IMG/VR virus record: IMGVR_UViG_3300037882_000913
Span: 1-58,970 of that record
Origin: a virus
Reading direction: 5' to 3' (one strand)
Length of the DNA: 58,970 bases
Shown: positions 28,737-38,087 of the stretch, one piece after another
How positions within the stretch are numbered: the first letter of the stretch is position 1
Layout: every line of letters starts with the position of its first letter
Notes under the pieces: generated by a model
Told to the model about the DNA's origin: nothing
What the model saw: only the letters and a program-made list of their open reading frames with translations
The model's database searches: none
Translations under genes and position numbers: made by a program

Positions 28737-29489
28737 ATGAAACTACTATTCACGTTCTCCGTCGATAAGGAGCAAGAGGTTGAGAAGAAAACAGAAACAG
28801 TAAATGAGGCGGGTAATACCGTGACCGTTACTGAAAAGGTCAAAGAGCAGGCTCCAGTGGAGTTCTGTTTGCGTAAACCTAGTCGCGTTATGTCTGATGA
28901 CGCGGACCTATATTATCACTGCCAAGTCAGCAAGGGCTTAAGCGCGGGGCTATTATCAATGGCTTTGATTAGCAAGCGTTTAGCTAATGACGGAGGAATC
29001 TTTACAGAAGAGGAAAAGAGAGAGTTCGACCGCAAACACGCAGAGCTTTTCACGAAGAAACTGGCGTTTCAAAAGCTCGTATCCACCCCAGACAGCGAGA
29101 AACTAGAAGGTCACAGCGCGAAAACAGAAGCTTTGCAAGTTGAGATTCGCGAGCTTGTCAGAGAAATTCAGAAGTTTGAGCTAGAGAACCAAAGCATGTT
29201 TACTAGTTCGGCAGAAGTCCGCGCTCGTAATAAGGTTGTAGTTTGGTGGTTGGCGGCCCTCTTGTATAAGAAACAGGGGGAAGGTTGGGAGCCGTTTTTC
29301 GAGGGTTCTGACGTTGAAGCGCGTATTGAAGCTTGGAATAAGATGGATGATGAGGATTACGACGAAGAAGAAATGACTTTTCATAATAAGGTCTTCAAAC
29401 AGGCTTTAAGCGCCGTTTCGATTTGGTATCACGGGGCAGCTTCTAATCAGGAGGAGTTTAAGAAAGTCTTCGCTGAACTTGAAGTTTAA
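28737..29489 (+). CDS. Putative tail assembly chaperone, part 1, 250 aa
   Basis: A helical, acidic protein (for instance MDDEDYDEEEMTFHNKVF near the C-terminus) that begins after AAAGGAAAAAGGAAATTAA. It lies two genes before the tape measure, as do the gpG/gpT chaperones of lambda-like phages. Its end overlaps the following frame by 11 bases and the downstream frame has no ATG or GTG near its beginning, so the two may be joined by a +1 frameshift. It contains LRKPSRVMSDDADLYYHCQVSKGLS, which may be the tail-tube-binding part. The assignment is by location. Confidence 0.5.
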   Translation: MKLLFTFSVDKEQEVEKKTETVNEAGNTVTVTEKVKEQAPVEFCLRKPSRVMSDDADLYYHCQVSKGLSAGLLSMALISKRLANDGGIFTEEEKREFDRKHAELFTKKLAFQKLVSTPDSEKLEGHSAKTEALQVEIRELVREIQKFELENQSMFTSSAEVRARNKVVVWWLAALLYKKQGEGWEPFFEGSDVEARIEAWNKMDDEDYDEEEMTFHNKVFKQALSAVSIWYHGAASNQEEFKKVFAELEV

Positions 29490-29491
29490 TA
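29478..29491 (+). other. Candidate +1 frameshift or restart site
   Basis: Upstream frame reads CTT GAA GTT TAA; the downstream frame reads TTG AAG TTT AAT. If the ribosome holding GTT slips one base forward to TTT at the UAA stop, it would continue in the second chaperone-like frame. The alternative is restart at TTG 29479. An AGGAGG sequence (29449-29454) lies about 30 bases upstream. Confidence 0.35.
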
Positions 29492-30447
29492 GCGAGAAGA
29501 TATTTTCGGAAGTAATTGCGGGGCGGACTCCAGTTGATTTGGTGGGCCGCCCTGTTTTTTTTCGTCACCTAACTCCTCAGAATCGTGGGGATAGCTCTTA
29601 TTATTATGAAAAGGTAATAGCGCAGTGTGAGGGAATGGGCATCGCTACTAGGGAGAAGAGGCTAGAAGAAGTTAAGGTGGTGGGCACTTGGACAGAGGAA
29701 CATGAAGGAGCTTACTTAAACGCTCAAAGCTACCTAGACAACTTAAACAACACGGTCAAGACGCTTGCTTTGCCATCTCAAGTTGCCGAGATGAAGGGTC
29801 AAATTGAGCAAGCTAAAGAAAAGTTCAGAGAAGTTTCTAGTAACCGGGCCGCCGCTATTGGAATTACGGCAGAACAGTTCGCAGACAAGAAAGCTAACGA
29901 GAAATTTATATTTGATAACTTGTTTGCGGATTCGTGTTGCTCCGCTTCCTTGTTTTCGCCCGATGAATATGACGAACTAGAAGAATCTGATATTGGTAAA
30001 GTAGTAACTGAAATAAATGTTATTGTGGCCGCCTACTCAGATTCATATCTTAAAAAGGCCGCCTTATCTAGATTAGTTCAAGATTTAATACAGATTTCAG
30101 ATGGAGACGCGATGCGATTCTATGGAGTGCCCGCTATTAAACTTACCTATTATCAGATTGAGTTGTTGAATTACGGTAAATGGTTCCAAAGCATACTAGC
30201 AGACCCCAAAAAGAAGCCACCCGCTCATATGATGGACAATCCAGACGCTTTAATTGAGTGGAGCACTGGGCAGAAAAATGCAGCGAGTATCCTGAATGCG
30301 CCGGGGCAAAATGTGGCGATTGTAGGGGCGACTCCAGAAGACCTAAAGGCTATTGCGGGAGAAGACGCTGTAAGTATGGATTCCCTTATTAAAAAGAGCG
30401 GCAAGCAGCGCGGCGCTAATTTGGCAAAAATGTTGGGACACAACTAA
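29479..30447 (+). CDS. Putative tail assembly chaperone, part 2, 322 aa
   Basis: The frame opens at 29410 but has no ATG or GTG before residue 53; the first usable start is TTG at 29479, inside the end of the previous gene. The protein is helical with a long coiled-coil segment about residues 90-130 and ends just before the tape measure unit. It is either translated by restart at the overlap or as a frameshift extension of the previous protein, which is how many siphoviruses make their two tail chaperones. The function is inferred from place and from this overlap. Confidence 0.5.
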   Translation: MKFNSEKIFSEVIAGRTPVDLVGRPVFFRHLTPQNRGDSSYYYEKVIAQCEGMGIATREKRLEEVKVVGTWTEEHEGAYLNAQSYLDNLNNTVKTLALPSQVAEMKGQIEQAKEKFREVSSNRAAAIGITAEQFADKKANEKFIFDNLFADSCCSASLFSPDEYDELEESDIGKVVTEINVIVAAYSDSYLKKAALSRLVQDLIQISDGDAMRFYGVPAIKLTYYQIELLNYGKWFQSILADPKKKPPAHMMDNPDALIEWSTGQKNAASILNAPGQNVAIVGATPEDLKAIAGEDAVSMDSLIKKSGKQRGANLAKMLGHN

Positions 30448-30488: not shown

Positions 30489-33400
30489 ATGCCAGACCAA
30501 TCTATAGAACTGATTGCAGACTTAAAACTGCAAAAACCAACGACCGCCGAAAGGCAGATTCGCGAGATTGAACGTAATTTGTTCAAGGGCTCTGGGCGGG
30601 CGGGAGAGCCGCTGGGTCGTCTTACTGGTAAAGTTTCTGAGTTTGACAAATCGTTAGAGGCTGCTAATGCCCGCGTTATCGCGTTCGGAGCATCCGCTGC
30701 GATTATCACAACTGTAACTACCGCTCTGACCCAGATGGTAGTTCAAAGCATTCGCGTTGAGAAAGTCTTGTTGGACATTAACGTATTGTTAGGTCAAAGC
30801 TCCTCCAGTCTTTCTAAATTTAGCGATTCGCTTTTTGAAGTAGCTAAGAATACTGGGCAAAGCTTCTTTGATGTAGCAGAGGCGGCTAAGGAGTTCTCTC
30901 GTCAAGGTTTAGGAGTTCAGGAAACTCTATCGCGCACTGCGGACGCGATGATTCTAACTCGTTTGACTGGACTTGACCTAGTTAAGAGCGTAGAACAATT
31001 AACAGCGAGCGTAAACCAATTCTCTAAAGAGGGAATTACGACGGCAGATGTTATCAACAGGCTTGCTAACGTTGATGCGAAGTTCGCCGTATCTGCTAAA
31101 GATTTGTCGGAAGGTTTGAGTCGTGCGGGTTCCGTAGCGCAAGACGCGGGAGCGTCATTCAACGAACTTATCGCGCTAGTAACCGCCGTTCAGCAAAGAA
31201 CCGCTCGCGGTGGTGCTGTCATTGGTAACGCGCTCAAAACCATTTTCACTCGTGTCTCCCGCTCTGACACTCTTGATTCTCTTGAAAAACTAGGAATTGG
31301 AGTCCGCGACCTAGAGGGAAATACTCTACCCGCAATCCGAATCCTAAGCGAGCTTTCCCAGAAATATGATGAAATGTCTTCTTCGCAGAGGGCGTTTACT
31401 TCTGAGCTAGTTGGCGGCGGCTATCAGATTAACATTGTAAAGAGCTTATTCGATGATTTAGGCCGCACTGTTCCAGAGTATGCTAAGGCGTTGGATGTGG
31501 CGGGTCGCTCTACGGACGAAGCTTACCAACGTAACGAATTGCTCAATAAGAGCTTTGCGTCGCTTGCGAATGAAGCTGGACAGAACTTAACTAAGCTAGC
31601 GGCCTCTTTTGGTAGCTTGACTTTCGGCCCAGCGCTCAAGAATATCTTTAGCGTCATTAACGGGGCGGGCGACTCTATTGATGGAAACGCTTTCTTGGAA
31701 GCGGGCGCGAAGGTTGGAAAGGGCTTAATAACGGGCATTGGCGACTTCATCGGCGGCCCCGGCCTAATCTACTTAATTTCCCTTATCGGCAAGTTAGGTA
31801 AAAAGTTTGGAACTTTCGCCAAAGATTCTCTTACGGATGTTCTATCTATTGGGGCTCCTAACGCGAAGATTCTTGATACGCAAAAGGGCATTGTAGATTT
31901 AGTTAATAACGAAGCTCGCGCCCATGACATTGTTAATAATGCACTATTAACTCAGGTTCAAAAAGAGCAACAGTTAATCCTTCTCATTAAAGAGAAAGTG
32001 GCCGCTCAAGCCGCTTATAAAAATGAAACACTCGCGTTATCAACCTCGTTGGTTGGTCGGGGAGTTGCATTCAAACCATCTACAGGTCAATTTAAGACAA
32101 AAGCGGGCGGCCATATGCCCCTTCCTATCTCGTCGGTCCCACAAGAAGCCATCCAAAGGGAAATTGTGGGGGCGAAGCAGGCGGGCTACAATATCCGCGC
32201 TTCTGACGTGCGCGTGATGCGGGCCAGCATCGACGGAAAAAGCACAACAGTTGTTTATAATAACAAAGAGAAGGTTATCCATGATTATATGGGGAGCGGG
32301 GAGCCTGCGATTATTCCGCCTACTGGTAGAATCAATAATTATTTTGACGGAACGACAACGAGGGCTTTTAAAAACTCATTAGGGGGCATTGGACTAAAAA
32401 TAAAAAATACGGGCTCCTATCTTGATTATTCTGCTGATAGAGCTAGCAAACAGTATCTTATCGAAGGAGTTGAGTCTCAGCAAAAAGGAGATGCCAGAAC
32501 CCTGTTTGAGACGTTAGCTAAAAAAGCTCAGAAAAAGGGCTTTTCTATAGAGTCCGGTTCTTTTATCCCACAGTTAGATAGAATAGACCCATTAACTTTC
32601 GATACTAACTCAAAAGTTGATAATCTTTATAAGCTTTTCCCACAGCTTCGTTACAGAAAAGGACTTGGCAATACTAGCGGCGACGTATTTTTGCCTACTG
32701 GCTCTACGAGCATTAAAACTCCATTTGGTTCTCTCGATGAATTAGAGTCTCTTGTCCAAAAACAATCTAATACCAAGCAAATAAGATTTGGAGGCGTCTC
32801 GACTCGGTTCGCCGCTGGAAGGATTGGTAACTATGCTGGTGGCATCGCAAGACCGGGACCATCCCTAACCGGAACTTTTGGCTCACTATCAGCCGACGCG
32901 GGTGCTAGACAAGCTTTCAGCGAGTCTGTATATATCCTAAGTAAAAAACTTGGCATCCCAGCTAATAAAATAGCATCAACAATAATTAGCGACAAGAATT
33001 TCAGGGGATTTGACGCGGCGTATTTTCAAAATGAAAATTTGATTAAAGTTGGCGCTCCGTCAATTAAAAACAGAGACACTATTAATAGACTTAAAGTGCC
33101 ATCAGTTGGGGCTTTAGGCAGGGGCGAGAGTTTGGGGCAAACGGCTGGGGGTATTATTGCCCACGAATATTTCCACAACGCGTATAGAACGAAACAGGAG
33201 GCCGCCCTTGGGTTTGCGAAAGAGAATGGCCTATTCATTCCTCGTGACGCGAGGCACGCCCTAGATTATCTTCAAGACGTAAAAGGCTACTCGAAACATT
33301 CATCAAGGGAATATAAAAGCTATGCGATAGAAGAGGCTCTTGCTACGCAGTTTGGCAAAGTAATTGGGTTTACTCAACACGCGGGCGGCCACATGCCCGA

Positions 33401-36400
33401 CTATAAAAATTTCGCAGCCTCCCCAAAAATCCCAAAACAACTTGATTACATAAAAAATAATCAAAAGTTGGGCGGCGTTGAATTTAAGAAGAAGGGCGGC
33501 GCACTTATCTTGGATATGGTTACTAGTGGCCGCGATGCCGAAGGCAATCGCTTAAAGGGCACTGGTATTCTTGATTTTGCCTTTAAACAACTATTTTCCA
33601 TTGCCCAGAAATCGGGAATCAAAGAGGTTGGTATGACTCCTATTAATGGGCGCGTCATCAATAAGGCGCAGCGCCTATTTGGGACTCGCGACTCAAGGGG
33701 CAAGCCAATTGATTTCGGAAATGATATTCGGTTGAATGTGGCGAAGTATGCGGGTAAGGTGATGAATGCTGCGGGCGGCTCTTTCAATCCAGCACGAGTT
33801 ATAAAACAAGGAGGCTTCGTAAAAGGAGCGAACAAACCAACGTTAAGCGGAATGGGAGAAATCCTATCTAGTATTGGTATTAAAGGAGACTTTAAAAGCG
33901 CGTCTGGTATAGAAGCTGCACTTAGGGATAAAAGCTCTAAGAAGAAACTCTTTGATTATTTAAAGAGTCGCCCGATAAGTGTAAGCTCGTTCCCTGATAA
34001 ATATTTTGAGATAGGGGATGGAAACCACAGAAAAGCTTTAGCTGATTTGGCGGGTATTAAAAATATACCTTCGTATCTTAATGCGGCGGGAGGACTGTCG
34101 GCCCAAAGAAATCTAATTAGACTTCCAAAAGGTTTTGAAGCGAAAAAGAGCGGCCCTAAAACTCTAAAAGAGAAACTTGCAGACGCTTACGCGAGCGCTA
34201 ATGTGGCGGCTCAAAAATTCGCTATTAAAGCTAATCCTTATGCGGCTTACGCTGACGACGCCATTGGATTTGTTCGTGGAATGTTTGGGTTTTCTGGGGG
34301 ATATATGAATGCCGCCCTTGGCTTCTCATCCGCCGAACTCCAAGGAATGTCCAAAAAAGACCTGTTGACGACCGCTCAACAACTTGGTATCCCAATTACG
34401 CCTGAGATAAAAAAATCTAATGCGGCGAGTTTGGCGAAATTAATTAGCGGCTCTAAGCAGCATAAGCAACTAGTTAGCCAAGAAAGAAGAGTAAAGGCCC
34501 GCGAGGGTGCGGCTCTGTCTAGTAACCTAGCGACAACTAGAGGGTTTCAAGCCCAATTAAAATTGACCGACACGGACGCTGTAGGACGACCTATCAATAT
34601 TAATCGTGTTACGCCGCCGCCGACAGAAGCTCAGAAGCTCGCAGAACTAGAGCGAGTCGTAAATCCCGGCGCTTTCTCCCCTTATTCAAAGGCTCAATTG
34701 GCACTTGGTCAAGCAGAATCAGCGAACCCAAGTTTGCCACAACGAACTCCAGAAGAACTAATACAAAGAAAAATTCAGGGAGCTAAAATCCGTGCGGAAA
34801 GAGCGGAGTCCGTAAGACAGAGGGCGATAGCGAACGCGAGAGCTAGGCTCGCGTCAAGAGACATTATTTCTGGCGCGGCGGCGGCTGGAATGACTGCAAA
34901 TCGCGCCCCCTCTCGTTTGAGTGGGCTAGGACTTCCAATCCAAAGCGGACCAAATCCCGTCCTAACCCCACGGGCTATAGAACTTGCCAAAGAAAGGCAA
35001 ATGGTTTCCAATCGCGTGCGGAATGAGCGGGGCTCACGCTTGACTTCTTCTCAATTAGAGCAGCTTCGAGCCGAATCTGGTTCAGGGCTCAAAACTAGAC
35101 AAGCGCAAGAAGCCGCTCGCCAGAAAGCTTATGCAGGTAGTGTAGAGGGGGTTGCCGCAAGACTAACAACCGCAGGAATAGCAAATCCTATTTCTAGCAC
35201 CTATCAGCAAGCTCCGCTTATTCCATTTTTAGGGCGTCCCGGTGCTCCGGGGGCGGCTCCCGGCACTGCCGCTGCCCAAGGGGGTCGCGGTGGAAGTTCT
35301 GGTGGTGGACCTCCGATAATTCCTCCAGTAGTGCCGCCATCGGGAGATTCCCCTCAAAAACGTTCGCTTTTATCGCGAGCTACTTCATTTGAAAAACCAG
35401 AACGCAACGCTAGGTTTTCCAGCGGAGCGTTTGCGCTTTCGTTCGCGGCCCCTTTAATTGGTGGAGTCGCAGCGGAAACTTTCGGTTCAAAAGACCCATC
35501 CGACCAACGCTCTAATCGCAAAATTCAAGGTATTGCATCGGGTATTGGAACTGGAGCGGCGCTAGGAGCTATTGTGGGCGGGCCTTTGGGCGCTGGTATC
35601 GGCCTTGCCGTCGCTGGATTTACTTCCCTCAAAGCGATTCTTGACAATACCGTTTTATCTTTTGACGACTTAAACGAAAAATCAAAAATACAATCAGAAG
35701 CGTCTCAAAGAATTATTTCCGGCATCGCTGGCTATGCTAACGCGCTAGAGACTCTTCAAAATGAATCACTGGACCCAAATCAGCGCAGAAGCGTCGAACG
35801 CCAAGGCCAGAAATCTTTGTCGTTACTTTCACAAGCGGATAAAGAAGAGTTGATAGCGGCGGGAACAGATTTCAAAAAAATTCAAGAGATTAACTCTAGG
35901 CAGTCTGAGCGGGCGAGTCGGGCCGACGCTGGGCTAGAATTGCCGAAATTAGTTAATTCGCTTAGGTCTAAAAAGGGAGACGGATTAGGAAACAGCATTC
36001 TTCTCAGCACTATTTTGGAGGCCGGGAAGCCTAATGAGGAGATTGACGAGAAAGAGTTGGATAGAAATCTAGCGGAACTCAAAAAACTGCCGAATCAAAG
36101 AGACGCCGTTAAAGGGATAAGTTCTCAGAGCGACGCTTACCGCAGACTTCAAGAACTAAAATCTCAAAAAACTGAAAAAAGAGAAGCTGTTCTAACGACT
36201 CTGGGACTAAAACCGTCTGATATAGCGGAATTTACCAGTCAAATTAATCAGGCGTCAGAAGCGCAGCGAGACGAATTTGATAAGTTGCTTCTGTCTGTAA
36301 AAAAGGGGTTAAATACCAGAGACGCTTTCAAAGCTTTCTCCGCTAATCTAGTAGAGGCTCAAAAAGACACCAGTAAAAGTCTATCTTCAATTCGTCGCAG

Positions 36401-38087
36401 TATTAATACAGAATCTTTAGCTGGACAACGTGCATCCGAGCTAGATTCAATTAAAAAGGACGGGTCGCGGAGCCGCGCTTCGTCGGTGTCTGACTTGACT
36501 TTTTCCACGTTGCGCTCGCGCTTGTCCGACGCCGAACCTTATCTTTCCGCGCCTACGTCTATTCGACTACAGAGCGAAGCGGACATTGCCCAAAAAACAG
36601 AAGGAACAAATAGGGAAATCACGAAACTCAACGAAGATAGAGCAAAAGCTATTCAAGGAAGCCTATCAGAAACGAAAAGAATCCTTACTGAAATTCCTGA
36701 TGGGGTTATCAATAAAATAAATGACCGCAAGGGCGCGTTGGGACTTGTCGAAAAAGTGGGCGGCGCTAAAACTTCTACGGCGGCATTAGAGTCTATTAGC
36801 AAGTTCGGTGCCTTGATAAAAGATTCAGAAGACCCTGAAACAAAAGCTTTCTATGAGAAATTGCTCGAACTATCAAAGCAGCAAAAAAGCGCGCTAGAGG
36901 GAATTGAGGAAAAATCAATAGAAACAGTTAATCAACTGCGATTGCAACTTGCTTTGGATAAAGCTGGCATAAAATCTGAAACCAACAGACAACTTAACAG
37001 AAAAGCTTTTCAAACTTCTTTGACCCAATTTAACCCTATAGACGTTCTCAAAAACGGACAACAATTTGGGGATATTGCGGCAGCCGCTAAAAAAAGAGTT
37101 TTCGATGGACTGGTTGACCCATCTGAATCCACTAACCAAAGATTTGCGCTCAGATACGGAACAGCGGAAGAAAAACGAAAAATACAAGATGAAGTCAGAG
37201 CAAAAGCTTTAGAGTCATCGGGAGTCAGGGCTCGTGGAATTATACAGGAGTTCTCAAGTGGTTCATTATCAAGCCCAGAGGAAATAGCAGACCAAAGAGA
37301 AAGCCTTTCTAAGAGTTTATATTTAATAGATAGTCCGGTCGGACCAGACGACAAGACCCGCATAAATAACTCTCGCAAGTCTGGAGGCGTTTATCTTGAG
37401 CCTACCTACGGAATTCCCGGCCTTGCCGCGATTCCTAATTTTTCTAAAGAGTTTTTAGCGCAAGGGGCTACCCTTTCGGACGTAGAAAAAACCAGAGAGT
37501 CTAAGAGAAAGCAATTAAAGAATGACTTAATTATCCAAGGGTTCTCAGCGGTGACATCTCAGGCCGACGCAGAAACTTCGCCATTTCTGGATGCTTTGTC
37601 TGGCGGCAAGTATGGATACGGAAGCGGCCTGTCAAAGTCAATATCATCGCAGATAAATTCAGGCAAGTTCCGAGATGCGGAGCAACAACTTACAGCCCTA
37701 TACCCAAGACTCAACAATGCTGGCAAACAAGAATTAGGTGGACAGGGTGGCATTATATCTAAGCTGCGAATCGCCCAACAGAACCTCGAAGCTACCGCAA
37801 GAAAAGCGGATACAGAATCTAAAAAGGCCGCTGGAGGCGATGACAAACCAATAACGATTAAGTTTGATAAGAGTGCGGAGGATACTATAAATAAGCTCGT
37901 TCCAAAAGAAAGCAAAACCCCTCCGTCTATATCTATCCCCACAACTGTATCAGTCACAACTACAGGAGGCGTATCAGAAAAAGATGGGCAGCAAGCCGGG
38001 GAAGCAATCAAAAATCAACTGGCGTCCGTAACTGAGTTCCTTTCCCAAAAGTTTGGATACGCAGAAGTTCCTAAAGCTACCGCATAA
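30489..38087 (+). CDS. Tape measure protein with embedded enzyme-like modules, 2532 aa
   Basis: Residues ~60-340 match the phage minor-tail/TP901-type tape measure core (ITTVTTALTQMVVQSIR, FFDVAEAAKEFSRQGLG, GGAVIGNALKTIFTRVSRSD). The rest is unusual. Residues ~783-965 contain a zincin motif HEYFH (892-896) with E948/E949 further on. Residues ~966-1094 show a GNAT-like acetyl-CoA loop R-x-x-G-T-G (1021-1026) and a later INGRVINKAQRLFG. Residues ~1095-1198 show a ParB-like DGNHRKALADLAG (1177-1189). These are separated by AGG motifs (539, 783, 965, 1095, 1199). A Gly/Pro linker is near 1585-1620, hydrophobic segments near 1645-1665 and 1682-1716, and long helices follow to the end. It sets tail length and is ejected ahead of the DNA. 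Confidence 0.85.
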   Translation: MPDQSIELIADLKLQKPTTAERQIREIERNLFKGSGRAGEPLGRLTGKVSEFDKSLEAANARVIAFGASAAIITTVTTALTQMVVQSIRVEKVLLDINVLLGQSSSSLSKFSDSLFEVAKNTGQSFFDVAEAAKEFSRQGLGVQETLSRTADAMILTRLTGLDLVKSVEQLTASVNQFSKEGITTADVINRLANVDAKFAVSAKDLSEGLSRAGSVAQDAGASFNELIALVTAVQQRTARGGAVIGNALKTIFTRVSRSDTLDSLEKLGIGVRDLEGNTLPAIRILSELSQKYDEMSSSQRAFTSELVGGGYQINIVKSLFDDLGRTVPEYAKALDVAGRSTDEAYQRNELLNKSFASLANEAGQNLTKLAASFGSLTFGPALKNIFSVINGAGDSIDGNAFLEAGAKVGKGLITGIGDFIGGPGLIYLISLIGKLGKKFGTFAKDSLTDVLSIGAPNAKILDTQKGIVDLVNNEARAHDIVNNALLTQVQKEQQLILLIKEKVAAQAAYKNETLALSTSLVGRGVAFKPSTGQFKTKAGGHMPLPISSVPQEAIQREIVGAKQAGYNIRASDVRVMRASIDGKSTTVVYNNKEKVIHDYMGSGEPAIIPPTGRINNYFDGTTTRAFKNSLGGIGLKIKNTGSYLDYSADRASKQYLIEGVESQQKGDARTLFETLAKKAQKKGFSIESGSFIPQLDRIDPLTFDTNSKVDNLYKLFPQLRYRKGLGNTSGDVFLPTGSTSIKTPFGSLDELESLVQKQSNTKQIRFGGVSTRFAAGRIGNYAGGIARPGPSLTGTFGSLSADAGARQAFSESVYILSKKLGIPANKIASTIISDKNFRGFDAAYFQNENLIKVGAPSIKNRDTINRLKVPSVGALGRGESLGQTAGGIIAHEYFHNAYRTKQEAALGFAKENGLFIPRDARHALDYLQDVKGYSKHSSREYKSYAIEEALATQFGKVIGFTQHAGGHMPDYKNFAASPKIPKQLDYIKNNQKLGGVEFKKKGGALILDMVTSGRDAEGNRLKGTGILDFAFKQLFSIAQKSGIKEVGMTPINGRVINKAQRLFGTRDSRGKPIDFGNDIRLNVAKYAGKVMNAAGGSFNPARVIKQGGFVKGANKPTLSGMGEILSSIGIKGDFKSASGIEAALRDKSSKKKLFDYLKSRPISVSSFPDKYFEIGDGNHRKALADLAGIKNIPSYLNAAGGLSAQRNLIRLPKGFEAKKSGPKTLKEKLADAYASANVAAQKFAIKANPYAAYADDAIGFVRGMFGFSGGYMNAALGFSSAELQGMSKKDLLTTAQQLGIPITPEIKKSNAASLAKLISGSKQHKQLVSQERRVKAREGAALSSNLATTRGFQAQLKLTDTDAVGRPININRVTPPPTEAQKLAELERVVNPGAFSPYSKAQLALGQAESANPSLPQRTPEELIQRKIQGAKIRAERAESVRQRAIANARARLASRDIISGAAAAGMTANRAPSRLSGLGLPIQSGPNPVLTPRAIELAKERQMVSNRVRNERGSRLTSSQLEQLRAESGSGLKTRQAQEAARQKAYAGSVEGVAARLTTAGIANPISSTYQQAPLIPFLGRPGAPGAAPGTAAAQGGRGGSSGGGPPIIPPVVPPSGDSPQKRSLLSRATSFEKPERNARFSSGAFALSFAAPLIGGVAAETFGSKDPSDQRSNRKIQGIASGIGTGAALGAIVGGPLGAGIGLAVAGFTSLKAILDNTVLSFDDLNEKSKIQSEASQRIISGIAGYANALETLQNESLDPNQRRSVERQGQKSLSLLSQADKEELIAAGTDFKKIQEINSRQSERASRADAGLELPKLVNSLRSKKGDGLGNSILLSTILEAGKPNEEIDEKELDRNLAELKKLPNQRDAVKGISSQSDAYRRLQELKSQKTEKREAVLTTLGLKPSDIAEFTSQINQASEAQRDEFDKLLLSVKKGLNTRDAFKAFSANLVEAQKDTSKSLSSIRRSINTESLAGQRASELDSIKKDGSRSRASSVSDLTFSTLRSRLSDAEPYLSAPTSIRLQSEADIAQKTEGTNREITKLNEDRAKAIQGSLSETKRILTEIPDGVINKINDRKGALGLVEKVGGAKTSTAALESISKFGALIKDSEDPETKAFYEKLLELSKQQKSALEGIEEKSIETVNQLRLQLALDKAGIKSETNRQLNRKAFQTSLTQFNPIDVLKNGQQFGDIAAAAKKRVFDGLVDPSESTNQRFALRYGTAEEKRKIQDEVRAKALESSGVRARGIIQEFSSGSLSSPEEIADQRESLSKSLYLIDSPVGPDDKTRINNSRKSGGVYLEPTYGIPGLAAIPNFSKEFLAQGATLSDVEKTRESKRKQLKNDLIIQGFSAVTSQADAETSPFLDALSGGKYGYGSGLSKSISSQINSGKFRDAEQQLTALYPRLNNAGKQELGGQGGIISKLRIAQQNLEATARKADTESKKAAGGDDKPITIKFDKSAEDTINKLVPKESKTPPSISIPTTVSVTTTGGVSEKDGQQAGEAIKNQLASVTEFLSQKFGYAEVPKATA

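Follow-up and report, generated by a model that had tools for sequence, protein, structure and literature searches.

A tape measure gene with an internal module array

The window, by which we mean the whole analysed stretch of 58,970 bases, is one IMG/VR virus record. Its tail gene block contains a very long ORF of 2532 amino acids that a sequence-only reading had named as a tape measure protein (TMP), and homology puts this identity on solid ground, with matches to Pfam PhageMin_Tail (1.7e-27) and PHROG 4211 (2.7e-49). Residues 538-1275 of the protein form an array of modules with AGG-type spacers between them, as detailed below; handles such as L002 denote relatives.

30489..38087, + strand: TMP with the internal module array
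30840..31394, + strand: PhageMin_Tail domain, residues 118-302 (Pfam)
32103..32120, + strand: spacer AGGHMP, residues 539-544, which opens the array
32109..32333, + strand: conserved first array unit, residues 541-615 (iterated profile, 51 TMP ORFs)
32409..32834, + strand: weak GNAT-like module a, residues 641-782 (TMPs L030 and L043 have related modules)
32835..32858, + strand: spacer AGGIARPG, residues 783-790 (from the sequence)
32859..33377, + strand: HExxH..EE zincin-like module, residues 791-963 (L002, 30% identical here, retains the motif)
33162..33176, + strand: HEYFH, residues 892-896 (from the sequence)
33330..33335, + strand: EE, residues 948-949, candidate third metal ligand (conserved in L002)
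33381..33398, + strand: spacer AGGHMP, residues 965-970 (17/18 nt the same as in the first spacer, GCGGGCGGCCAyATGCCC)
33441..33758, + strand: GNAT-like module b, residues 985-1090 (fold search; identity to an L014 module)
33768..33779, + strand: spacer AAGG, residues 1094-1097 (where GFIPNFA precedes the ParB-like module in L129)
33780..34082, + strand: ParB-like module, residues 1098-1198, with DGNHR at 1177-1181 (relatives L002, L035/L128, L012/L131 and L129/L130)
34083..34094, + strand: spacer AAGG, residues 1199-1202 (from the sequence)
34293..34310, + strand: last recognisable spacer, SGGYMN, residues 1269-1274 (from the sequence; present in L002 too)

GFIPNFA is present in degenerate form in the window spacers and more clearly, as (S)GGFIPNFA, in the more distant relatives L003, L005 and L006. 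In relatives, the GFIPNFA spacers begin at about residue 530-650, which is where the first window spacer lies. Just before the ParB-like module the window has AAGG, L002 has AGGYMN and L129 has GFIPNFA; the module starts directly after each of them, which shows the two spacer forms to be equivalent.

Candidate enzyme modules of the window protein

The sequence-only reading had placed metallopeptidase, GNAT and ParB-like modules inside the TMP, and the motifs it relied on, namely HEYFH (892-896), EE (948-949), the loop at R1021 and DGNHRKALADLAG (residues 1177-1189, nt 34017-34055), were all found where it had put them. It was confined to these segments, while the spacers, the GNAT-like module at 641-782 and the wider family were no part of it. 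Since relatives conserve the motifs, and shuffled versions of the window TMP seldom contain them (HExxH in 0.2%, DGxHR in 0.3%), they exceed chance. Searches of the separate window segments against Pfam gave nothing useful and no match above cut-off, and a PDB sequence search with zincin, GNAT-a and ParB profiles gave nothing credible. Structure prediction did not show plain helical tape for the GNAT-b segment, but did not yield confident folds either.

In the zincin-like module, HExxH is followed downstream by a candidate third ligand, and the residues H109, E110, H113, E165 and E166 (segment numbering) are invariant. The AlphaFold model had a mean pLDDT of 56.6, with a better core around the motif helix (74-86), and a fold search with this model returned no match. 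Modules of similar kind, with HELFH and HEASH, are present in TMPs L066 and L008. Because profile alignment of the window module to these covered just 15 columns around HExxH (probability 47), common descent of the three is left unclaimed; MAFFT did not bring the window module into register with L066/L008 either. Scans with the zincin-like and GNAT-b modules gave no relatives other than those in L002. Among the 193 cargo segments from the matches listed, HExxH occurred in five, compared to a shuffle mean of 0.1. We call the window module a putative zincin from motif conservation only.

GNAT-like module b contains the loop R1021-LKGTG1026 and the stretch N1053-G1065 ('N..A..LFG'). The sequence-only reading had both elements right, but ended the second at residue 1060 and spaced N and A by five residues, whereas the gap is six. 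The module is 28% identical to a GNAT-motif module with RxxGxG in TMP L014, and the top 11 PDB matches of a fold search were all GNATs, with a best E of 0.12 and none individually significant. In the joint AlphaFold model of GNAT-b and the ParB-like module (mean pLDDT 56.0), the strands, loop and helix of the GNAT half followed one another as expected; against a viral fold library this low-confidence model gave nothing significant and scattered GNAT matches. A Pfam search with module b had no match and no close relative was found. For module a, the top match outside its own family was likewise a GNAT module (probability 17). The GNAT calls in the window are therefore supported by this evidence, not proven.

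The same grade, supported and not proven, applies to the ParB-like module. Four further sequences, three of them about 40% identical, retain DGNHR unchanged, and ParB_N is the sole Pfam family matched by the relatives of the module, with E values of 0.0061 (L129) and 0.043 that are below cut-off. The window sequence itself did not match ParB_N.

A family of spacer-bounded tape measure proteins in viral metagenomes

L002, the TMP nearest to that of the window, shares 77% of the residues in its N-terminal part, with 82, 70 and 78% identity to the window up to residue 615. Beyond this point the two proteins form a mosaic: L002 is without a counterpart of GNAT-like module a, its HExxH module is 22-36% identical to that of the window with HExxH and EE retained, the position of GNAT-b is taken by an unrelated segment in which a YRG motif is the sole ART-like feature, and the ParB-like modules are 74% identical.

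A scan of viral contigs for DNA encoding GFIPNFA gave at least 120 stretches. Among the matches listed, at least two spacers were present in one ORF in 105 of 120 viral stretches and at least three in 92, so that the combination, considered uncommon in the sequence-only reading, is not so in viral metagenomes. The spacer motif occurred 434 times in the 203,802 residues of TMP ORFs (among the matches listed) as opposed to once after shuffling. Since the viral stretches were selected for containing the motif, and so have one copy or more each, a scan of genome contigs with the same motif was used as independent control; here a multi-spacer ORF was present in 2 of 119 stretches, both short and metagenome-assembled. 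PhageMin_Tail was above cut-off in the same ORF as the spacers in 11 of 12 tested records. Isolate phages matched the generic TMP domain only (about 25-32% identity), a 1211-aa module block had no match in the phage collection, and five TMPs from that collection (four isolates) contained no spacer. The window array belongs to a large and apparently undescribed family of viral TMPs, and we found no description of the spacer or of such phage TMP arrays in the open-access literature.

TMPs of this family range from 1776 to 3621 aa among the matches listed and carry one to six exchangeable modules in slots between (S)GGFIPNFA spacers. The conserved first unit is the first between-spacer segment in 27 of the 28 members of its cluster. 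The cargo from the matches listed comprised 193 segments that fell into 74 clusters. Matches above Pfam cut-off included a staphylococcal nuclease (SNase) module in L105 (1.9e-9; PDB thermonuclease 1.2e-6) and GNAT modules in L066 (7.3e-8), L051 (7.4e-5) and L069 (4.6e-4), while an Hsp90-type ATPase (3.7e-5), a P-loop (0.0057) and ParB_N (0.0061) stayed below it. Further segments were labelled kinase-like, HAD-like (phosphatase), PD-(D/E)xK-like (nuclease) or ART-like (ADP-ribosyltransferase) by motif; a PDB profile search gave no confirmation for the kinase-like, HAD-like or PD-(D/E)xK-like modules, and these three labels rest on motifs. The PD-(D/E)xK-like class is the commonest cargo, with at least 37 loci. 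Close in kind to the window set is TMP L066, in which GNAT, HExxH and HAD-like modules stand in succession.

Exchange of modules at spacers and selection

Modularity and module swapping bounded by the spacers are well supported by comparison of near-identical phages. L021 and L090 share an N-terminal segment at 97%; their DNA alignment stops at residue 504, inside the spacer at 499-505, and homology sets in again exactly where the following spacer begins (residue 677/813), with unrelated modules in between, one of the SNase type. Comparable breaks, mostly within 1-2 codons of a spacer, were observed in L010/L088, L090/L104, L104/L013, L116/L121 and L034/L096. Pairwise dN/dS values of 0.07-0.56 indicate that the modules are under purifying selection, with dS saturated in the pair of window and L002.

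Proposed delivery of the modules and alternative explanations

We consider it probable that the modules are polyvalent-type early effectors, swapped in the form of cassettes, which the tape measure delivers. The N-terminal and long C-terminal parts of the TMP would do the usual job of chaperoned assembly, tail length and ejection, and between them lies a block of cassettes, small globular modules joined by a short flexible Gly-Gly spacer, which in the window comprises the first unit, a GNAT-like, an HExxH metallopeptidase-like, a second GNAT-like and a ParB-like module. At ejection, tape measures pass out of the tail into the cell envelope, a point discussed in PMC13277306. As the tape measure precedes the DNA, the modules would be the first to arrive in the envelope or cytoplasm of the host, where they would fold and act prior to phage gene expression by modifying host proteins or tRNA, by processing proteins (perhaps to release modules) or by acting on nucleic acids or nucleotides. 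We infer ejection of the block, enzyme activity, the early-effector role and possible cleavage at spacers. A difficulty for delivery is that a folded module would have to pass, or be unfolded in, the narrow tail tube. At the spacers, modules are swapped between phages by recombination, and the spacers would keep the modules independent; cargo could therefore track host defences while the structural parts stay unchanged. The broader picture, which we favour by a slight degree, is of a widespread lineage of uncultured phages whose TMP is a rack of interchangeable effectors, with the spacer (GGFIPNFA or AGG[HY]M[PN]) as hinge and recombination joint and a payload that is ejected before the DNA and rebuilt by cassette. 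Against the early-effector reading count the window modules below Pfam cut-offs, the two AlphaFold models with a mean pLDDT of 56-57, and the degenerate window spacers, which would escape recognition if taken alone.

Tape measures are processed in several phages, and with an HExxH module in the same chain the modules might instead act in the particle or its assembly, for example by trimming the tape measure, and not as host effectors. Conserved units stand at both ends of the array, namely the first unit and two kinds of last unit, as might be expected of a structural scaffold. The cargo, however, is not conserved and differs between near-identical phages, most TMPs are without the HExxH module (5/193 cargo segments among the matches listed), and we know of no assembly role for nuclease, acetyltransferase, kinase-like or HAD-like modules, all of which makes a particle role unlikely. 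That the block is filler from worn-out domains that lengthens the tail would be in keeping with the variable length of the TMPs (1776-3621 aa among the matches listed) and with window modules below Pfam cut-offs, but is very unlikely in view of purifying selection, catalytic motifs that are invariant at 30-42% identity, and the intact modules of SNase and GNAT type that relatives carry.

Homing endonuclease genes in introns often interrupt tape measure genes (PMC10448857) and PD-(D/E)xK-like modules are the most frequent cargo, so the modules could be regarded as selfish insertions tolerated in a long gene. We judge this highly improbable, as the array is one open frame with no intron or intein motif seen, one spacer bounds every module type, and the cargo extends to acetyltransferases and kinase-like, HAD-like and ParB-like modules; homing elements and inteins were rejected because of the single open frame and the varied non-nuclease cargo. 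Hardly credible is an ordinary tape measure with chance motif matches. AlphaFold folds that are not confident and the missing zincin fold match would agree with it, while conservation in relatives, a shuffle probability of 0.002-0.003, the mosaic pattern of L002 and the homology breaks at spacers disfavour it. The original proposal is supported in part: several enzyme-like modules that are not needed for length are present in a TMP and resemble polyvalent proteins, while their delivery as early effectors by the tape measure remains a proposal.

Relation to known systems

Several conflict-type domains, among them HExxH metallopeptidase, GNAT, ART, kinase and ParB-like domains, are likewise combined in one phage polypeptide in the polyvalent proteins, which are known from phages and conjugative elements (Iyer et al. 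2017, PMC5512222) and were proposed to enter as head proteins with the DNA and to act before gene expression. At least two conflict-type domains per polypeptide define this class, to which the family belongs through the SNase and GNAT modules of relatives, the window domains being below cut-off. Pfam polyvalent-domain families were not detected in the window segments at E<=5 or in 78 modules at 0.01. In contrast to the published polyvalent proteins, the carrier here is a tail tape measure and a repeated short spacer separates the modules; the word 'tape' is absent from PMC5512222. In our judgement, the proposed polyvalent-type delivery carried by a tail protein is a new variant.

Similarly, the effectors Sle1 (PMC13277306) and Tme (PMC11126660, as cited in PMC13277306) are tape-measure-like chains with an exchangeable functional domain that are ejected from a tail tube. 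They are parts of actinobacterial contractile injection systems rather than virions and have one C-terminal functional domain after a coiled coil, in contrast to the internal multi-module array of a phage TMP. Enzymatic domains inside tape measures are also represented by the peptidoglycan hydrolase motifs of the mycobacteriophage TM4 TMP (Piuri and Hatfull 2006, cited in PMC13277306) and by SPbeta yomI, a TMP annotated with a lytic transglycosylase. These are single cell-wall enzymes for entry, whereas the array described here consists of unrelated intracellular-type enzymes bounded by spacers. MuF-type and polymorphic toxins (class PMC3482391) share the constant carrier with effector or toxin domains exchanged by recombination, but their variable domain is usually one and C-terminal, as opposed to several internal cassettes with conserved first and last units.

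If the proposed delivery is true, tail-delivered payloads would stand beside head-delivered ones as a major route to disarming hosts, and the spacer would be an easy search motif by which hundreds of candidate counter-defence enzymes could be gathered from uncultured phages. It would also become testable whether a tail tube carries folded or refolding enzymes and whether carried length counts toward tail length, questions for which module pairs one cassette apart, such as the L116 and L121 types, are natural experiments. At the DNA level, codon identity between spacer copies was 0.64 compared to 0.55 expected from TMP codon usage, a modest excess that hints at, but does not prove, a role for the spacer as DNA.

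Arrays in related viral tape measure proteins

The module arrays of viral tape measure proteins (TMPs) were bracketed by conserved units of 65-80 aa, with one type of first unit and two types of last unit among the clusters of between-spacer segments:

Viral TMP loci: conserved bracketing units of the arrays, cluster 2 (first unit), clusters 0 and 3 (last units)

The commonest class of cargo, the exchangeable modules between spacers, carried G..FE, D and (D/E)xK motifs (L006:11750-12478 and at least 36 more loci) and by these motifs resembles PD-(D/E)xK nucleases; searches of PDB and Pfam gave no support for this class. GNAT (above the Pfam cut-off), HExxH and HAD-like modules follow one another within a single TMP at L066:428-1939 (-), a set close to the combination in the window TMP. 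At L029:5042-6748 (-), a single TMP module of 569 aa combined a putative Hsp90/histidine-kinase-type ATPase domain with a HEAAH motif.

Among the genome-contig loci from the spacer-motif scan (119 stretches), only L147 and L200 contained ORFs with at least two spacers. Both are 4 kb long, come from metagenome-assembled genomes (Proteobacteria and Woesebacteria) and are perhaps misbinned phage DNA.

Regions flanking the array in the window

Two overlapping ORFs in a +1/-2 frame relation (28737-30447) lie immediately upstream of the window TMP and occupy the tail assembly chaperone position. A -2 frameshift is annotated at the matching position in Rhodococcus phage Mbo2, and no slippery heptamer was found. 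Past the last spacer, the TMP contains a short helical, SAP/HeH-like stretch (34316-34460; KKDLLTTAQQLGIPI), the sole backing for which was a weak match to IF2_N (0.15).
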